Origin: Mariprofundus sp. EBB-1
GTDB taxonomy: Bacteria; Pseudomonadota; Zetaproteobacteria; Mariprofundales; Mariprofundaceae
Direction of reading: 5' to 3'
Length of the DNA stretch: 61,259 nt
Assembly: GCF_003665155.1 (NCBI RefSeq)
Contig: NZ_RCFQ01000016.1
Span: 1 to 61,259 of the forward strand
Shown here: positions 6,379 to 21,066 of the stretch, piece by piece
How positions within the stretch are numbered: the first letter of the stretch is position 1
How the letters are laid out: every line of letters begins with the position of its first letter
The notes under the pieces: generated by a model
The model's input: the letters and a program-made list of their open reading frames with translations, nothing else
Databases searched by the model: none
Told to the model about the DNA's origin: nothing
Made by a program: the position numbers and the translations under genes

Positions 6379-6767
6379 GGAATACCTCGTGAAGAGTGAT
6401 CTGAGGTGAGTGACTCTATCGTCAGAGCATCAGAGAGTCAGTAGTTATAATTGGTCGTTTAAGGTGTGATATCAGTGTATATTTTATACGGTCAATTTTT
6501 GAAATTAGTAAAGTCTGTAGTGGTTCACTACAGTTGTAACCTATCCCTTCAATCCATCATCGTGTTCCCTGTTGCGGTATCGTGATTTTATTGAGAGTCC
6601 TTCCACCTGATCTATTAGTGGGGACCTTTGGTCAGGCTAATATTGTACTCGGCCATACACATTCATTAATTACAATACTAGATTAATAACCAATCTTGCC
6701 CATTCTATTTCATTGCCATACTGTTTCCATACTATTGGTGGGGACCAAAGGAGGGAAGAGAAAGTTT
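6379..6767 (+). promoter_or_regulatory. Divergent control region and candidate leader RNA of the TonB receptor operon
   Basis: This is a gene-free 389-bp stretch between hslV and the receptor gene. CTATTAGTGGGGACC (6612-6626) recurs as CTATTGGTGGGGACC (6732-6746), 14/15 identical and exactly 120 nt apart. CCTTTGGTC (6625-6633) is perfectly complementary to GACCAAAGG (6743-6751). The latter overlaps AAGGAGG, the only good Shine-Dalgarno for the receptor. The leader could therefore mask its ribosome site, or the repeats could be operators. No Fur box or known riboswitch class was recognised. Confidence 0.45.
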
Positions 6768-8699
6768 ATGGCATGGATGTCAGTACTATTTTTATTAATG
6801 ATTATATTTCCTGTGTGGATCTCACATGCAGAGACACCGGTTGATCTGCTATTTGATGAGCAGGACAGTGTAATTACAGCAACTGAGTCGCAGCGAGTGC
6901 TGGGACAGGTGCCTGCCATAGTGACTGTGATTACAGAAAAACAGATTCGGGATATGGGGGCGCATACGCTGATTGAGGTGCTGGATGCTGTTCCCGGCAT
7001 GAATGTCAGCTATCCAATGGACTTGGCTACGGGTCACACGTTGACAGTGCGTGGCCTTAAAAGCAGTGAAGCAGAGAAAACACTGTTGATGATCAATGGT
7101 CATCGGGTTAATAACCCTTATTCCGGTTCATGGACTTTTCTGTTCGACGAGTTCCCTCTCAATGATGTACGCCGTATAGAGATTATTCGAGGTCCGGGTT
7201 CAGCACTTTATGGCTCCAATGCGATGGCTGCCGTGATTCATGTGATTACTAAGAGTGGTGAGGATTTCCGTGGCTCTGGAGCATCTGTTGCAGCAGGGAA
7301 TCATAACACCCAACTTGGTCATATCAGGGGAGGTAGCAAAAAAGATAACCGTAATATTTTGTTAAGTTTGAATGCCTCATCGACCGATGGGGATAGACTA
7401 ATGATTCCTAGTGATGCAGCAGGTGCGACAGGACTAAGTAACTTTTGGCGTAAGCAGCAGTCAGCTTTTCTATCTGCATCATCAGGGAATTTGTCATTGT
7501 TTGCCATGCATATAAATAAACGTCGTGGTTCTGTTCTCGATGGCAGTAATAGAATTGATCAGAGTACAAATGTTGCGATTCGTCAGAGTGCTGTGGCTGT
7601 AGCATGGAAGCTGAGTGGTGATGACTGGGATGCTGAGTTGCGAACTGATGCAGACTTATTTGATCTGGATCCGCAATGGCAGATGTTTGGTGGTGCACAG
7701 ACTCTGCGTCCACAGGTCAAAGATTTGACACTTTCTGCTCGTGCTCTGTTGCGTTATCGTGGTTGGGAAATGCAGGAGTGGACCATCAGTCTGGCTTATG
7801 AGCATATAAGGCAGTTTGGTGTGCATATGTCCAATAATGGCTTGGATGTTTCTACTCTGTTTAACCATAACCGGAATGCTGTGCGTCAGGTGCCAGCATT
7901 GGTCATTCAGAATGAATGGTCTCCTCTACCGCAGTTGTCTATTACAACTGGCATTCGTATAGAGCGCTATTCCGATGTGGGTAGCCATGTTTCGCCACGT
8001 TTTGCGGCAATATGGAGCCCAATGTCATCATTGGATATTAAAGCGATGTACGGCCATGCCTTTCGTGCTCCGAGTTTTGTCGAACTTTATTCAAGCAATA
8101 ACCCCACAGTGCAAGGAAATCCCAACATTAGCCCTGAAACTGTCGATACAATTGAGCTTGGTGGATCCTTTCATGATGGCCTCTGGCGTCTGGACAGCGG
8201 TATCTTTTACAGCCGTTATAAAAGACAGATCACGCGAATTTCACCAAGTCCTTTGACCGTTAATGTTGGTCGTACCAACCTCAGAGGGTTTGAAGTTGAA
8301 CTACGTGCTGATGTGAAAAAAGGGCTTTATGGTTCTCTTGCATATACATGGCAGAGAAGCAGTAATGATCTGACCAGTCAGCAACTGCCGGGTGTATCTG
8401 TACGGATGATTAAATTCAGTGGAGATGTTCCTCTGCCATTGGATACGCATCTGCATACAGATCTGCGTTGGATGGGGCCACAATCCCGTGATCTAGGTGA
8501 TACTCGACCACCGGTCGGTGCAATATGGCTGGCTAACCTTGCGTTACGTACAGGCAATCCGGTTGATGGGTTGAGTACGAGTGTGACTGTGCGTAACCTG
8601 TTTAACCGGAAAGTTTACAGTCCCATCACTGTGCCGGGTATGTCTGATTTAACGCTTTTTGACAGGCAGTGGATGGTTAATCTCGCATATGAGTTCTAG
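6768..8699 (+). CDS. TonB-dependent outer-membrane receptor
   Basis: A 643-residue receptor with a signal peptide (about 1-22). The plug domain follows: VPAIVTVITEKQIRDMGA, LDAVPGMNV, TVRGLKSSEAE, RRIEIIRGPGSALYGSNAMAAVIHV. A beta-barrel then ends in LAYEF with the terminal aromatic residue. The barrel contains the usual FRAPSFVELY segment. ATG 6768 fits the signal peptide; AAGGAGGG lies 12 nt upstream, a longish spacing. It is followed 3 nt later by a periplasmic binding protein and then a sensor kinase. Ligand unknown; small vitamin-type receptors of the BtuB/CirA class are the nearest match by length and plug. Confidence 0.92.
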   Translation: MAWMSVLFLLMIIFPVWISHAETPVDLLFDEQDSVITATESQRVLGQVPAIVTVITEKQIRDMGAHTLIEVLDAVPGMNVSYPMDLATGHTLTVRGLKSSEAEKTLLMINGHRVNNPYSGSWTFLFDEFPLNDVRRIEIIRGPGSALYGSNAMAAVIHVITKSGEDFRGSGASVAAGNHNTQLGHIRGGSKKDNRNILLSLNASSTDGDRLMIPSDAAGATGLSNFWRKQQSAFLSASSGNLSLFAMHINKRRGSVLDGSNRIDQSTNVAIRQSAVAVAWKLSGDDWDAELRTDADLFDLDPQWQMFGGAQTLRPQVKDLTLSARALLRYRGWEMQEWTISLAYEHIRQFGVHMSNNGLDVSTLFNHNRNAVRQVPALVIQNEWSPLPQLSITTGIRIERYSDVGSHVSPRFAAIWSPMSSLDIKAMYGHAFRAPSFVELYSSNNPTVQGNPNISPETVDTIELGGSFHDGLWRLDSGIFYSRYKRQITRISPSPLTVNVGRTNLRGFEVELRADVKKGLYGSLAYTWQRSSNDLTSQQLPGVSVRMIKFSGDVPLPLDTHLHTDLRWMGPQSRDLGDTRPPVGAIWLANLALRTGNPVDGLSTSVTVRNLFNRKVYSPITVPGMSDLTLFDRQWMVNLAYEF

Positions 8700-8702
8700 T
8701 CG

Positions 8703-9572
8703 ATGAAATACAGTTTCACATGTTTGGTACTATCGCTATTTTTCGTCATCACTACTGTTCAGGCCGTTGAAGTTGATGTGCTTTTTTCAGATCGCTATCG
8801 TCCTCATGTTGAGGCAGTGCAAGGTTTGAAACAGGGAGTTCGGGCTGATGATGTGCGTCTGTTTTCTATTGATAAACGCAGAGATCTTGCGGAAATGATG
8901 GAGCAACTTCAACGCATCAAGGAGAGAAAACCGGATCTGCTGGTTGTCGTTGGAGAGGATGCTCTACAAGCGGCTATCTCTTTGAATACAGGCATTCCGA
9001 CTGTGTCGATGATGTCGATGAGTCTGCGTGCGACGTTGCAAAATAAAATATCCCTCACCGGTGTTGATTTAAGGCCATCCCCTATTGTTGTGTCTGCAGA
9101 GTTGACGCATCAATTAACCAAGGGAGCTACGGTGATTAGTTATTATAACCCAGCACTTTCTAATGCTTATATTGAAGAGGCAAAAGCAGCATTTAAAAAA
9201 GAAGGTTTATTATTGATTGCGAAGCCATGGCCTGAACATGATGTGCAGAAATCCGTGAATGAAAGCATGAAGGATGCAAACTGTTACTGGATGCAGATGG
9301 AATATCAGAGTGTGAATCCTGACACACTACGGCTGCTATTTGGACTGGCCAAAAAAGGGAAAAATCTAGTGGGGTTGTCTGGAAAATATGTGCGTGCGGG
9401 TGCGCTATTGGCATGGACACCACAACCCAGGAAGATTGGTGAGCAGGCGTCTATCTTGGCTAACCGCATTTTAGCAGGAGAAGATCCAGTCAAAATCCCT
9501 TTGCAACACCCAACTGAAATGAAACTTTCAGTTCGTACAGCGGATACGAGAGAGGTAGGTGAAAATGAATAA
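8703..9572 (+). CDS. Periplasmic ABC-type substrate-binding protein, orphan
   Basis: A 289-residue protein with a signal peptide (to about residue 20, VQA-VE). The body resembles the COG2984/TrpX-type binding proteins (PF04392): KPDLLVVVGEDALQAA, GIPTVSMMSM, a second lobe with ATVISYYNPALSNAY, and the closing PRKIGEQASILANRILAGEDP motif. No ABC permease or ATPase lies nearby. It is sandwiched between a TonB receptor and a hybrid kinase, whose coding region it overlaps by 8 nt. A sensory role, presenting ligand to the kinase, is therefore as likely as transport. Confidence 0.82.
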   Translation: MKYSFTCLVLSLFFVITTVQAVEVDVLFSDRYRPHVEAVQGLKQGVRADDVRLFSIDKRRDLAEMMEQLQRIKERKPDLLVVVGEDALQAAISLNTGIPTVSMMSMSLRATLQNKISLTGVDLRPSPIVVSAELTHQLTKGATVISYYNPALSNAYIEEAKAAFKKEGLLLIAKPWPEHDVQKSVNESMKDANCYWMQMEYQSVNPDTLRLLFGLAKKGKNLVGLSGKYVRAGALLAWTPQPRKIGEQASILANRILAGEDPVKIPLQHPTEMKLSVRTADTREVGENE

Positions 9573-11787
9573 ATTTTTTCACCGTTTTTCACTTACCGGC
9601 CGATTGTATCTGCTTTTAACACTGACAACCGTTAGCATATTTTGTGCACTTTTTTTGGCAGTTTGGTGGACTGAAAAGGATTCGCTGGAAACGATGTTAC
9701 AGCAAAATGGAGAATCACTTTCTGCTGGTCTGGAACAAAATATACGGCTTGGAGTTCAGCTTGGCGAAACAGAATTTGTACGTGATGGCGCCACGAGTTT
9801 AATTGCAAACCCTGATATTCTATCGGTTGATATTTATAATGCGACTGGTAGCCGAATTGTACTGTTAAAGGGTGAGCACGATGTGCTGGCAATGGATCAT
9901 TTATTGCAAGCGTTTCGTGGGGGGCTTACTTTTGAAACGCTAGGAGATGGAAGAGAAGAGCGAATTATTACGTCTATTCGTACCTCTAGTGGTGAAGTGA
10001 TCGGGTATAGTGTGCTTGATCTTTCACGGGCCTCAATTAATAGAACACTTGAATCTTCATTGATGATCTCAGGTGCAATCAGCCTTTTACTGTTATTGGT
10101 TTTTTGGTGGTTAGCATGGTTGTCTGTCAGACAATTGAAACGGCCACTCGATGAGCTCGATAGGGCTGTCGAAGCGGTGACGCAGGGCAGGCTCGACGTC
10201 ACGATCAATGCTGATATCCCGGATCCCATCGCACGTATTGCCACAAGCTTTAATGATATGACAGATGCTCTGGCTAAAAATCGAGAGTCAATCCATCTGC
10301 AAACCAGTGCGCTTGAAAAGTCGGAAATGCGTTTCAGAGAGTTGTTTACGCATATGCCCGTAGCTATGTATATGGCCAATATCGATGGCTCATTGCATCA
10401 ATGTAACCCAGCAATGGCACGTCTGTTTGGTTATGAGACGCCTGAAGCGATGTTGGAATCAATAGAGGATATTCGGGCGATTTATAAGGATACAGCTGAT
10501 CGTGATGCACTCATCGTTGATTTGATGCGTAATCAAAGCGTAAGTCGAAGAGAAATTTCATATGTATCAAACTCTTATGGGGAGTTACGCTGTATATTGC
10601 ATGCGCGTTTAGTTGAAGATGAACATGGTCGCCCATCAGGTATTGAAGGCATGATTCAGGATATGACCCAGCTAAGGTTGCTTGAGGATAACCTTATTCA
10701 AGCTCAGAAAATGGAAGCGGTTGGTCAATTGGCAGGCGGTGTGGCTCATGATTTCAATAATCTGTTATCTGCTATTCTCGGGAATGTGGAATTACTCAGC
10801 ATACATACCGCTGCAGATGAGAAGAGTTTCCGTTACACAAGTCGAATTAAACAAGCTGCTAAACGCGCTGCTGAAGTGACTACAAATTTGCTTGGTTTTG
10901 CCCGTAAGGGAGAAATGCGCCGTGAACCGGTGCTTATTAAGGGAGTGATAGAAGAGGTCTTAAGTTTGATCAGAGAAACTTGTGATCGACGCGTAAATGT
11001 CTCTTTTCAAAGTGGTCCTGAACATTTACGCATTATGGGAGATCCGGGGCAGTTGCATCAAGTGCTTATGAACTTGGCTATTAATGCTCTGCATGCAATG
11101 CCAGATGGGGGTGAGTTGTCACTGAGTAGCTTCTCTGCCAATCATCAGGTTGTCATTCGTATCTCCGATACAGGGGTCGGGATGACAAAGAAGGTACTCA
11201 AACAGATATTTGAACCATTCTTTACGACCAAAGAAACAGGCAAAGGGACAGGGCTAGGTCTGGCTATGGTTTATGGTATTATTGAAAAGCAGGATGGCCA
11301 TATTTCGGTGAACTCTACGCCAGGAAAAGGTACATGCTTTGAAATAAAGTTACCTCTGTACGAGGGAGATAGAGGGCATGTTAATATCCAAAGCAATAGC
11401 ACAGAAATTCCTAATCTAATTGGTCATGTGTTATTGGTCGATGATGAAGACTTACTTCGGGAGCTTGGTGAAGAGATTCTAAGCCTTTCCGGTTTAGAGG
11501 TTTTAACGGCGATAAGTGGTGAGCAGGCTCTGGCTATTTTGGCGAATAGTGACGAGGTACAACCGGACGTTGTGTTGCTTGATATGAATATGCCGGGGAT
11601 TGGCGGTATGGCAACCTTGCGAGAGATTAGAAGCAGCTACGATAGTTTAAAGGTGATTGTGATGACTGGGTATAGTGAAACAACGTTTGATTCTGCTACG
11701 GAGTCGCTCTGTTACGATGGTTTTATTAGTAAACCATATCAAGCCAGTGACCTGTGTGCTGAGGTGCTGAGGGTGTTGCAAGAATAG
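9565..11787 (+). CDS. Membrane hybrid histidine kinase (HAMP-PAS-HisKA-HATPase-REC)
   Basis: A 740-residue sensor. TM1 is at about 13-33, then a periplasmic region of about 140 residues, TM2 at about 170-190, and a HAMP domain (to about 245). A PAS domain (FRELFTHMPVAMYMANIDG, about 250-370) follows. HisKA has phospho-acceptor His395 in GGVAHDFNNLL. The ATPase domain has NLAINALHA (N box), DTGVGM and GTGLGLAMVYG. A C-terminal receiver (LLVDDED) has acceptor Asp673 in LLDMNMPG. No output domain or separate response regulator is adjacent. ATG 9565 was preferred over in-frame GTG 9559 because AGGT lies just upstream. It overlaps the binding-protein gene, so the two are probably translated together. 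Confidence 0.92.
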   Translation: MNKFFHRFSLTGRLYLLLTLTTVSIFCALFLAVWWTEKDSLETMLQQNGESLSAGLEQNIRLGVQLGETEFVRDGATSLIANPDILSVDIYNATGSRIVLLKGEHDVLAMDHLLQAFRGGLTFETLGDGREERIITSIRTSSGEVIGYSVLDLSRASINRTLESSLMISGAISLLLLLVFWWLAWLSVRQLKRPLDELDRAVEAVTQGRLDVTINADIPDPIARIATSFNDMTDALAKNRESIHLQTSALEKSEMRFRELFTHMPVAMYMANIDGSLHQCNPAMARLFGYETPEAMLESIEDIRAIYKDTADRDALIVDLMRNQSVSRREISYVSNSYGELRCILHARLVEDEHGRPSGIEGMIQDMTQLRLLEDNLIQAQKMEAVGQLAGGVAHDFNNLLSAILGNVELLSIHTAADEKSFRYTSRIKQAAKRAAEVTTNLLGFARKGEMRREPVLIKGVIEEVLSLIRETCDRRVNVSFQSGPEHLRIMGDPGQLHQVLMNLAINALHAMPDGGELSLSSFSANHQVVIRISDTGVGMTKKVLKQIFEPFFTTKETGKGTGLGLAMVYGIIEKQDGHISVNSTPGKGTCFEIKLPLYEGDRGHVNIQSNSTEIPNLIGHVLLVDDEDLLRELGEEILSLSGLEVLTAISGEQALAILANSDEVQPDVVLLDMNMPGIGGMATLREIRSSYDSLKVIVMTGYSETTFDSATESLCYDGFISKPYQASDLCAEVLRVLQE

Positions 11788-18746: not shown

Positions 18747-19349
18747 ATGTTTACCGGAATTATTCAGGATGTTGGCTCTATAGTGTCAATCCAACAGGAA
18801 TCTCTACAATCGCATATGGTTTTTGCAACTGCACTTGATATGTCAGACTGGCATATTGGTGATTCGGTAGCTTGCAATGGGTGCTGTCTGACCATTACTG
18901 CTTTCCCGGACAATAGAACGTTTGCTGCAACCTTATCGTTAGAGACATTGCAATTGACAACTTTTGCAGATGCTTGTGAGAAAGATGCGGTGAATCTTGA
19001 GCCGGCTTTGTGCATGGGCGATGCCCTCGGTGGACATATGGTGACAGGTCATGTGGATGGTATCGGTCTGGTTCAGTCGGTGCGCGAGATTGGCGAACAT
19101 CGTGAATTTAGTTTTACATTATCGGATGCTTTAGCACGCTATGTGGTGGTGAAAGGCTCGATCTGCATTAATGGTGTTAGTCTTACCGTGAACAAGGTGG
19201 GCAGGAATGACTTTACCGTGAACCTGATTCCTCATACCTTGTCGCACACAAATTTGGGCACTTTGAAAGCTGGTGCTATGGTAAATATCGAAACAGATAT
19301 GTATGGTCGTTATGTTGAACGACTGATGCAGTTCCCAACGGAGACATAA
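18747..19349 (+). CDS. ribE: RibE, riboflavin synthase (alpha chain)
   Basis: A 200-residue enzyme that dismutates two 6,7-dimethyl-8-ribityllumazines into riboflavin and the pyrimidinedione precursor. It shows the diagnostic N-terminus MFTGIIQDVG and two lumazine-binding repeats (about 1-97 and 98-190), with NGCCLTI in the first, and HVDGIG and INGVSLTVN in the second. The TAATG junction overlaps ribBA by 1 nt. No FMN riboswitch was recognised upstream. Confidence 0.96.
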   Translation: MFTGIIQDVGSIVSIQQESLQSHMVFATALDMSDWHIGDSVACNGCCLTITAFPDNRTFAATLSLETLQLTTFADACEKDAVNLEPALCMGDALGGHMVTGHVDGIGLVQSVREIGEHREFSFTLSDALARYVVVKGSICINGVSLTVNKVGRNDFTVNLIPHTLSHTNLGTLKAGAMVNIETDMYGRYVERLMQFPTET

Positions 19350-20563
19350 TGACTTTGGCAACAACTGAAGAGCTGCTTGAAGAGCTGCGCATTGGCCGCA
19401 TGATTATTCTGGCTGATGATGAAGATCGCGAGAATGAAGGTGATCTGGTGATGGCTGCGGAGTGGGTGACTCCCGAAGCGATTAATTTTATGGCAACCCA
19501 TGGGCGTGGCCTGATCTGTCTGGCCATGACGCAGGAGCAGACCGATCAACTGGATCTGCCGTTGATGGTAGCCAATACCAATTCCAAATTTAAAACCAAT
19601 TTCACCATTTCTATTGAAGCGGCAGAAGGTGTGACCACAGGTATTTCGGCCTATGATCGTGCCCATACAGTGCGTGCTGCAATTAAGGATAATGCAAAAC
19701 CGGGCGATATCCATACTCCTGGTCATGTGTTCCCGCTGGTGGGACGTGATGGTGGTTTACTGGTGCGCGCTGGCCATACCGAAGCCAGTATTGATTTGGC
19801 ACGCATGGCTGGATTGAAGCCTGCCGGTGTGATTTGCGAGATTATGAACGATGATGGTTCCATGGCGCGCTTGCCTGAATTGAAACTGTTTGCCAAAAAA
19901 CATGGTTTGAAAGTGGGTTCGATTGCAGATGTGATCAGTCACCGCTTGAAACATGATTCACTGGTGAAACGTGAAGTGGAAGTGCGTATGCCGACCGAAT
20001 TCGGTGAATTTCGTCTGATTGGCTACACCAATGCCGTGGATCAGGCCGAACATGTGGCTTTGGTAATGGGTAATCCTGATGCAGATAAGCCGTGTCTGGT
20101 GCGTGTGCATTCCGAATGTTTGACTGGTGATGTGTTTACTTCACGCCGTTGTGATTGTGGCTCGCAGCTACATGCAGCCATGCGACAGGTAGCAGAAGCG
20201 GGTGAAGGTGTGATTCTTTATTTGCGTCAGGAAGGGCGCGGTATTGGTCTGCTGAACAAGCTGCGTGCTTATGCGTTGCAGGATGTGGGCCACGATACGG
20301 TTGAAGCGAATGAGAAGCTTGGGTTCAAAGCCGATTTGCGTGATTATGGTATTGGAGCACAAATTTTGCGTGATCTGGGGCTGCGTCGGTTGAAACTGCT
20401 AACCAATAACCCCAAGAAAATTATTGCGCTTGATGGTTATGGTCTGGAAGTAAGTGAACGCGTGCAACTCGAAGTGGGTGAACATGAAGATAATGTTGCA
20501 TATCTGACCACCAAACGGGATAAAATGGGACATTTATTGAATATGAAAGGTGAAAAATCATGA
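19349..20563 (+). CDS. ribBA: RibBA, bifunctional DHBP synthase / GTP cyclohydrolase II
   Basis: A 404-residue fusion catalysing both entry reactions of riboflavin synthesis. The N-terminal DHBP synthase (about 1-205) has DDEDRENEGDLVMAAE, HGRGLICLAM and HTPGHVFPL. The C-terminal GTP cyclohydrolase II has the zinc cysteines in HSECLTGDVFTSRRCDCG, LRQEGRGIGL, and RDYGIGAQIL. Both halves keep their catalytic motifs, unlike some species with degenerate RibA halves. It overlaps ribH by 4 nt (ATGA). Confidence 0.97.
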   Translation: MTLATTEELLEELRIGRMIILADDEDRENEGDLVMAAEWVTPEAINFMATHGRGLICLAMTQEQTDQLDLPLMVANTNSKFKTNFTISIEAAEGVTTGISAYDRAHTVRAAIKDNAKPGDIHTPGHVFPLVGRDGGLLVRAGHTEASIDLARMAGLKPAGVICEIMNDDGSMARLPELKLFAKKHGLKVGSIADVISHRLKHDSLVKREVEVRMPTEFGEFRLIGYTNAVDQAEHVALVMGNPDADKPCLVRVHSECLTGDVFTSRRCDCGSQLHAAMRQVAEAGEGVILYLRQEGRGIGLLNKLRAYALQDVGHDTVEANEKLGFKADLRDYGIGAQILRDLGLRRLKLLTNNPKKIIALDGYGLEVSERVQLEVGEHEDNVAYLTTKRDKMGHLLNMKGEKS

Positions 20564-21066
20564 GTTTAGACGCGCCGCATTTGGCAGGAAACGTTGATGC
20601 AAGCGGTTTGAAGGTTGGCATCGTAGCGAGCAGGTTTAATGCTGATATTACCGAAGCACTGTTATCCGGTGCCGTTTCAGCATTGAAAGAGCACGGTTGT
20701 GCAGAATCTGATATGGTGATTTCGCATGTGCCGGGAGCGTTTGAAATTGGCACGATTGCGACAAAGATGGCAGATAGCGGTCGATTTGATGCGGTAGTGT
20801 GTCTGGGCTGCGTGATTCGTGGTGATACAGCGCATTTTGATTATGTATGTCAGGGTGCAATGGATGCGATTGGAAAAGTCGCACAGCGCGGTGATATCGG
20901 TGTTGGCAACGGCGTACTGACGGTAGAAACACATGCACAGGCACTTGAACGTGTGGGTGGTGCGCATGGGCACAAAGGCGAAGAAGCAGCCTTAACGGCT
21001 GTTGAAGTTGTCAGACAGTTACAATGGATTGACCAGATAGCTATCGATCAGGCTTTGGAGGCATAA
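20560..21066 (+). CDS. ribH: RibH, 6,7-dimethyl-8-ribityllumazine synthase
   Basis: A 168-residue enzyme condensing DHBP with the ribityl-pyrimidine. Conserved parts: VGIVASRFNADITEALLSGA, VPGAFEIG, VCLGCVIRGDTAHFDYVC, and GNGVLTVETHAQALER in place of the common GVLTTDTxEQAxER. It forms a pentamer or icosahedral capsid in most bacteria. It overlaps nusB by 1 nt. Confidence 0.96.
   Translation: MSLDAPHLAGNVDASGLKVGIVASRFNADITEALLSGAVSALKEHGCAESDMVISHVPGAFEIGTIATKMADSGRFDAVVCLGCVIRGDTAHFDYVCQGAMDAIGKVAQRGDIGVGNGVLTVETHAQALERVGGAHGHKGEEAALTAVEVVRQLQWIDQIAIDQALEA

Follow-up and report, generated by a model that had tools for sequence, protein, structure and literature searches.

A candidate trans-envelope sensor of TonB-dependent receptor, binding protein and hybrid kinase in Mariprofundus sp. 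EBB-1

What does a TonB-dependent receptor (TBDR) do beside a periplasmic binding protein and a membrane hybrid histidine kinase, with no transporter encoded alongside? Three genes of Mariprofundus sp. EBB-1, at positions 6768 to 11787 of contig NZ_RCFQ01000016.1, raise this question. The window is the whole analysed stretch of 61,259 nucleotides (nt); it is contig 8 of a genome related to Mariprofundus and other Zetaproteobacteria. A sequence-only reading had proposed that the substrate-binding protein (SBP) senses rather than imports and that the trio forms a trans-envelope signalling route. Comparative evidence supported both ideas: a separate tree branch and lost pocket residues suggested sensing, and wide co-occurrence of the three genes was consistent with the route. 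We consider it somewhat probable that the operon is a dedicated trans-envelope sensor, running from TBDR to SBP to a Cache domain and into a kinase phosphorelay.

The three genes and their products

The locus was confirmed to the base. It encodes the TBDR (6768..8699, + strand; 643 amino acids, aa), the SBP (8703..9572, +; 289 aa) and the hybrid kinase (9565..11787, +; 740 aa). Open reading frame coordinates and Pfam matches reproduced the described 3-nt gap between TBDR and SBP, the 8-nt overlap between SBP and kinase, and the domain content. The TBDR starts at ATG 6768 and the kinase at ATG 9565; an upstream TTG at 6696 and a GTG at 9559, respectively, are possible alternatives. As the sequence-only reading had stated, no ATP-binding cassette (ABC) permease or ATPase gene was found in the surroundings. 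The SBP was the sole PF04392 protein of the 2.88 Mb, 99.5% complete genome.

The TBDR contains a plug (residues 47-156, 6906-7235; Pfam Plug, 4e-22) and a barrel (residues 243-611; TonB barrel, 3e-38). The Pfam scan found no N-terminal STN signalling domain. The closest solved structures were Cir and BtuB. When compared with curated substrate families, the best matches were TonB-B12, hemin and siderophore receptors, all far under their cut-offs. In a search for riboswitches, the window gave no Rfam match at all, and ten relatives gave none of relevance. The proposal of a metal, vitamin or siderophore ligand thus gained no support from riboswitches or from receptor families. The whole genome has only four TonB-receptor plugs, and one belongs to the trio. 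Another is in a second operon, described below. By sequence, the remaining two resemble a B12-type receptor encoded next to ABC importer genes (L141) and a receptor whose neighbour is a TonB gene (L142).

The kinase contains HAMP (residues 188-236, 10126..10272, +), PAS (256-367, 10330..10665, +), HisKA (387-449) and HATPase_c (492-599; 7e-26) domains, the latter two spanning 10723..11361 (+), and a C-terminal receiver (Response_reg, 6e-23; residues 622-734, 11428..11766, +). The phospho-acceptor His395, the receiver phospho-acceptor Asp673 and Lys723 are intact. The core motif is HDFNN, which is CckA-like. The kinase was said to have its own receiver and no output domain, and indeed neither an HPt nor an output domain was present. 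One stand-alone HPt protein is encoded in the genome (111 aa, L193) and is a possible partner of the kinase. In the AlphaFold2 model of the N-terminal part (predicted local distance difference test, pLDDT, 81.8), the first transmembrane segment (TM1) lies within a long helix; one Cache domain follows, and then a second segment (TM2) leading into HAMP. The model placed the Cache domain at residues ~69-154 (9769..10026, +), between the long first helix and TM2. Foldseek indicated likeness to WalK, to CitA and to the periplasmic part of a LapD orthologue. The sequence-only reading, which gave the periplasmic region as about residues 35-170, is amended in that the sensor is this single domain.

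Module binding proteins lack the importer pocket

The SBP matched ABC_sub_bind (PF04392, 2e-12), belongs to family COG2984 and is predicted to carry an N-terminal signal peptide. Its AlphaFold2 model (pLDDT 89.6) showed the two lobes of a class I fold, and the best fold matches were 3lft, 3lkv and CD0873. Solved relatives in this family bind aromatic amino acids, and the amino-acid-holding residues of TrpX/CD0873-type proteins have been described (PMC6816091, PMC9382623). Pocket columns, in SP1069 numbering, were mapped via an alignment and the residue numbers of these two papers. We then compared 29 permease-linked SBPs with 30 module SBPs, the latter from five transducer groups and a porin-linked group. 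T119, D163 and N244 were invariant in the permease-linked SBPs (29/29), whereas D163 and N244 were kept in 0/30 module SBPs and T119 in only 3/30. In the window SBP, T119, A138, T140, D163 and N244 correspond to E85, M104, M106, L123 and Y201. Module SBPs do not have the importer amino-acid pocket. The motif GLSGKYVRAGAL (SBP residues 224-235, 9372..9407, +) is typical of Mariprofundaceae module SBPs.

In a tree of 73 SBP sequences, a branch with 99% support in the Shimodaira-Hasegawa approximate likelihood-ratio test (SH-aLRT) parted the permease-linked from the module SBPs. The permease side contained all 29 permease/ATPase-linked SBPs, 10 unclassified SBPs and 2 kinase-linked SBPs. No SBP adjoining both a TBDR and a transducer was found inside this branch. 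The TBDR-transducer label needed 3 changes on the tree, compared with 22.5 when labels were shuffled; this was a quick tree with long branches, and the deep order on its signalling side is uncertain. Regular linkage of homologues to a permease, which the sequence-only reading had named as evidence against itself, holds only for the separate branch.

On the tree, the gene context and the pocket residues, we rejected the SBP as an ABC importer subunit. It shares its family and fold with TrpX, CD0873 and VC_1101, but has neither a permease partner nor their ligand-holding residues. A TrpX-type COG2984 importer was rejected likewise: the PF04392 fold is there, and the adjacent permease and ATPase and the amino-acid residues are missing.

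Recurrence of the trio

Relatives were found with an alignment-based contig scan; a single-protein scan gave 0 matches. Within Mariprofundaceae, the order TBDR-SBP-kinase was kept in close relatives at 46-65% identity (L020, L021, L022, L117, L118 and L119). It was also kept in Mariprofundus sp. OFTM252 (L019), where an IS30-like transposase frame follows the first kinase codons (8802-9284, contig end). This kinase gene is apparently interrupted, and the strain has two other SBP-kinase modules. More divergent subtypes also retain the three genes, which are directly adjacent in the type C loci L024 and L026 and in the type D loci L029 and L120-L122. In type B loci (L023, L025, L027, L028), three metabolic genes lie between TBDR and SBP. 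They encode two proteins like citryl-CoA lyase and one acetolactate-synthase-like thiamine pyrophosphate enzyme (L025 3818-7274; also L023, L027, L028), and may be a clue to what the ligand is, or how it is metabolised, in type B. In type E loci (L030, L031, L032), the SBP and kinase genes are preceded by a gene for a non-TBDR outer-membrane protein. At L030 (5312-10250), a Porin_O_P match, a PF04392 SBP and a hybrid kinase with a CHASE4-like sensor follow each other, and L031 and L032 show a similar logic.

The three proteins (SBP, kinase and TBDR) had correlated pairwise distances (r = 0.973, 0.973 and 0.990; 0/5000 permutations were as high). The association exceeds chance, since the distances correlate and the gene order is found again in diverged relatives whose outer neighbours differ; the differing neighbours also indicated that the three genes move together.

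A wider survey covered 398 Pseudomonadota genomes and the neighbourhoods of matches. Most matches outside Mariprofundaceae were canonical SBP-permease-ATPase sets. TBDR-SBP-transducer trios were found at L096, L097, L110, L111 (with changed order), L112, L114 and L132. Wherever examined, the third gene encoded a membrane transducer, and its output varied: a hybrid kinase, a kinase-receiver-HPt protein (L112), a plain diguanylate cyclase (L110 1917-5961), an HK-REC-REC-Hpt-GGDEF-EAL protein (L097 1968-8999) or a SpoIIE phosphatase (L132 2323-7876). Several transducers had sCache_4 or CHASE8 sensors. A gammaproteobacterial module-SBP profile matched in 66/274 Gammaproteobacteria, with 52 matches above 130 bits in 50 genomes; all three genes were present in 22 of the 30 best loci, with 1.5 kb flanks examined. 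Plasmid pSD of Geobacter anodireducens carries a TBDR-SBP-kinase trio (L134 2953-7311), all three genes being annotated as hypothetical.

A trio of this kind is listed in Pseudomonas aeruginosa, in the order fabB, fabA, hybrid kinase, 'ABC-type uncharacterized transport system periplasmic component', 702-aa TBDR and gpsA (PMC12054119 Table 4). Locus L114 agrees with this list in order and sizes: a 340-aa protein, a 702-aa TBDR, a 306-aa SBP, a 637-aa kinase and a 171-aa protein, the end proteins being read as GpsA (340 aa) and FabA (171 aa). Its kinase receiver matched the solved PA1611 receiver (7c1j/7cfw) at 210 bits. In the Pseudomonas-type genus of L114, the SBP was found in 18/25 genomes and the full trio in 18/18 of these. 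PA1611 adjoins fabA; this position, the receiver match and the length of 651 aa led us to identify the listed P. aeruginosa kinase as PA1611. We take PA1612 and PA1613 to be the locus numbers of the P. aeruginosa SBP and TBDR.

PA1611, which lacks an HPt domain, phosphorylates HptB and also binds RetS; its signal is given as unknown (PMC5812489, PMC7467158). Neither paper mentions PA1612 or PA1613 or describes a role for the SBP and TBDR genes. The window has the gene set and order of a PA1611-type trio of TBDR, PF04392 SBP and transducer, and both kinases are hybrids with their own receiver and without HPt. The loci differ in the kinase core, which is BarA/GacS-like in PA1611 and CckA-like in the window, and the SBPs are only distantly related. 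A phage-resistant P. aeruginosa isolate, Ned 5, has an 11.4 kb tandem duplication (PMC12054119). We observed that this duplication contains the entire PA1611 trio, from which the authors take up the receptor alone, under the name FepA.

The arrangement, first thought out of the ordinary, is therefore widespread and includes the PA1611 locus. Absence of the trio from other genomes was the second result named as adverse; instead, it recurred in Mariprofundaceae, in the 22/30 gammaproteobacterial loci, in 18/18 loci of one Pseudomonas-type genus and on the Geobacter plasmid. No description of the trio as a system was found among 5.39 million open papers, subscription papers being outside the scope. 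The single parts are already known, and their combination as a system is apparently undescribed.

The window trio is flanked by genes for HslV/HslU, by sequence, and for a cNMP-binding protein. Promoter and terminator scans gave site counts not above those of shuffled sequences. A riboflavin synthesis cluster lies within ~10 kb of the trio in three type A genomes (window 18747-21066; L020 11438-14000; L021 10560-13352), which probably reflects a shared ancestral location. The window, from an iron-oxidiser lineage, also encodes a GH6 family cellulase with a PKD domain (485-2266).

Signalling model and competing explanations

In LuxPQ, TorTS, AioXS and ChvE-VirA, a periplasmic binding protein works with a membrane kinase, which is often a hybrid. 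The trio resembles LuxPQ and TorTS in that the binding-protein gene adjoins the gene of a membrane-bound hybrid kinase that has its sensor in the periplasm. All four systems differ from it in having no outer-membrane TBDR and in using binding proteins of other families. FecA-FecR also ties a TonB-dependent receptor to signalling, but the trio has a kinase in place of the anti-sigma and sigma factors. No anti-sigma or extracytoplasmic function (ECF) sigma factor genes adjoined the trio in the flanks checked, and a FecA-type transducer was ruled out by the missing STN domain. The best explanation is that the trio works like LuxPQ/TorTS with an added outer-membrane gate and a layout like that of YfiBNR, being a member of none of these systems.

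In the model that we infer, the TBDR-SBP and SBP-kinase contacts, the direction of signalling, the identity of the ligand and the HPt partner are all putative. The TBDR would admit a scarce external compound or report its binding. The SBP, no longer an amino-acid importer subunit, would carry the state of the TBDR or ligand across the periplasm and dock on the kinase's one Cache domain. Docking would shift the kinase/phosphatase balance through HAMP and PAS. Phosphate would pass from His395 to Asp673 in the receiver of the same kinase; a separate HPt protein would take it up next and hand it on to a response regulator, as in the P. aeruginosa HptB branch.

Several points weigh against this sensor model. 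A porin takes the place of the TBDR at L030-L032, and some SBPs have no neighbouring TBDR (L092, L131). The TBDR could be the regulated target instead of the input. The output wiring of PA1611 is not directly transferable, because the kinase cores differ. The SBP pocket residues are now mostly hydrophobic, so that this protein may have no small-molecule ligand.

The last point leads to YfiBNR. There, YfiR represses YfiN, and YfiB sequesters YfiR at the outer membrane (PMC3375315). The trio shares the three-part layout across outer membrane, periplasm and inner membrane (PMC3375315, PMC2837407), with an inner-membrane protein having a periplasmic single-PAS/Cache sensor and HAMP. YfiBNR differs in having a Pal-like lipoprotein instead of a TBDR, YfiR instead of an SBP, and a diguanylate cyclase output. 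By Pfam, the trio has no YfiR (PF13689), Pal-like lipoprotein or GGDEF output and was rejected as a YfiBNR member. The genome's single PF13689 gene lies on a different contig, within an operon separate from the trio (L140, G000:C5:20000-36000, minus strand 11085-5669), which encodes, in this order, a YfiR/PF13689 protein, a CHASE8 hybrid kinase and a TonB receptor.

Similar partner switching without a small ligand is an unlikely account of the trio, yet the strongest of the alternatives. An SBP-fold messenger would repress or activate the Cache domain, and the TBDR, depending on its own state, would bind this messenger or let it go. This agrees with the bulky hydrophobic residues in the former pocket (M104, M106, L123, Y201), with the YfiR-YfiN and YfiB precedent, and with the L140 operon, in which a YfiR-type protein takes the SBP place next to a CHASE8 kinase sensor. 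However, the SBP retains a full two-lobed class I fold, which a ligandless messenger would not need, and the specific motif GLSxKYVRAGA is kept, as expected for a binding site.

Ordinary two-component control of uptake appeared slightly less probable again. The TBDR would import a nutrient that the SBP-kinase pair senses after its entry into the periplasm, the kinase would regulate the operon and catabolic genes, and the TBDR would supply ligand with no part in signalling. The missing STN domain, the metabolic genes between TBDR and SBP in four relatives and the porin-associated SBP-kinase pairs fit this, but neither the operon nor the genes right beside it encode an inner-membrane importer, and metabolic surroundings vary among type A loci. 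A further account, in which the SBP would partner an ABC permease from another part of the genome and the kinase would be an unrelated neighbour, is very improbable: distant homologues do adjoin permease and ATPase genes (L034, L078-L130), but permease-linked SBPs form a separate branch only, the amino-acid-holding residues are gone, and gene order and co-inheritance join the SBP to the kinase.

We return to the trans-envelope sensor. The pocket signature provides a sequence test separating signalling COG2984 proteins from importer subunits, two kinds that annotation pipelines lump as 'ABC transporter substrate-binding protein'. More tentatively, the trios may represent a widespread, apparently undescribed trans-envelope class in Pseudomonadota and Geobacter, in which a TBDR and a repurposed COG2984 SBP feed a transducer with interchangeable output (histidine phosphorelay, cyclic di-GMP synthesis or SpoIIE phosphatase) and provide PA1611 with the input still missing for it within the RetS/GacS-HptB network. 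PA1611 is among the kinases that set the sessile/motile balance of P. aeruginosa through HptB and RetS, and if this is true, the trio would be a concrete input for a kinase whose signal is listed as unknown. Bacteria have few known routes for reading the outside of the outer membrane, and the trio would add one with a defined parts list in many genera.

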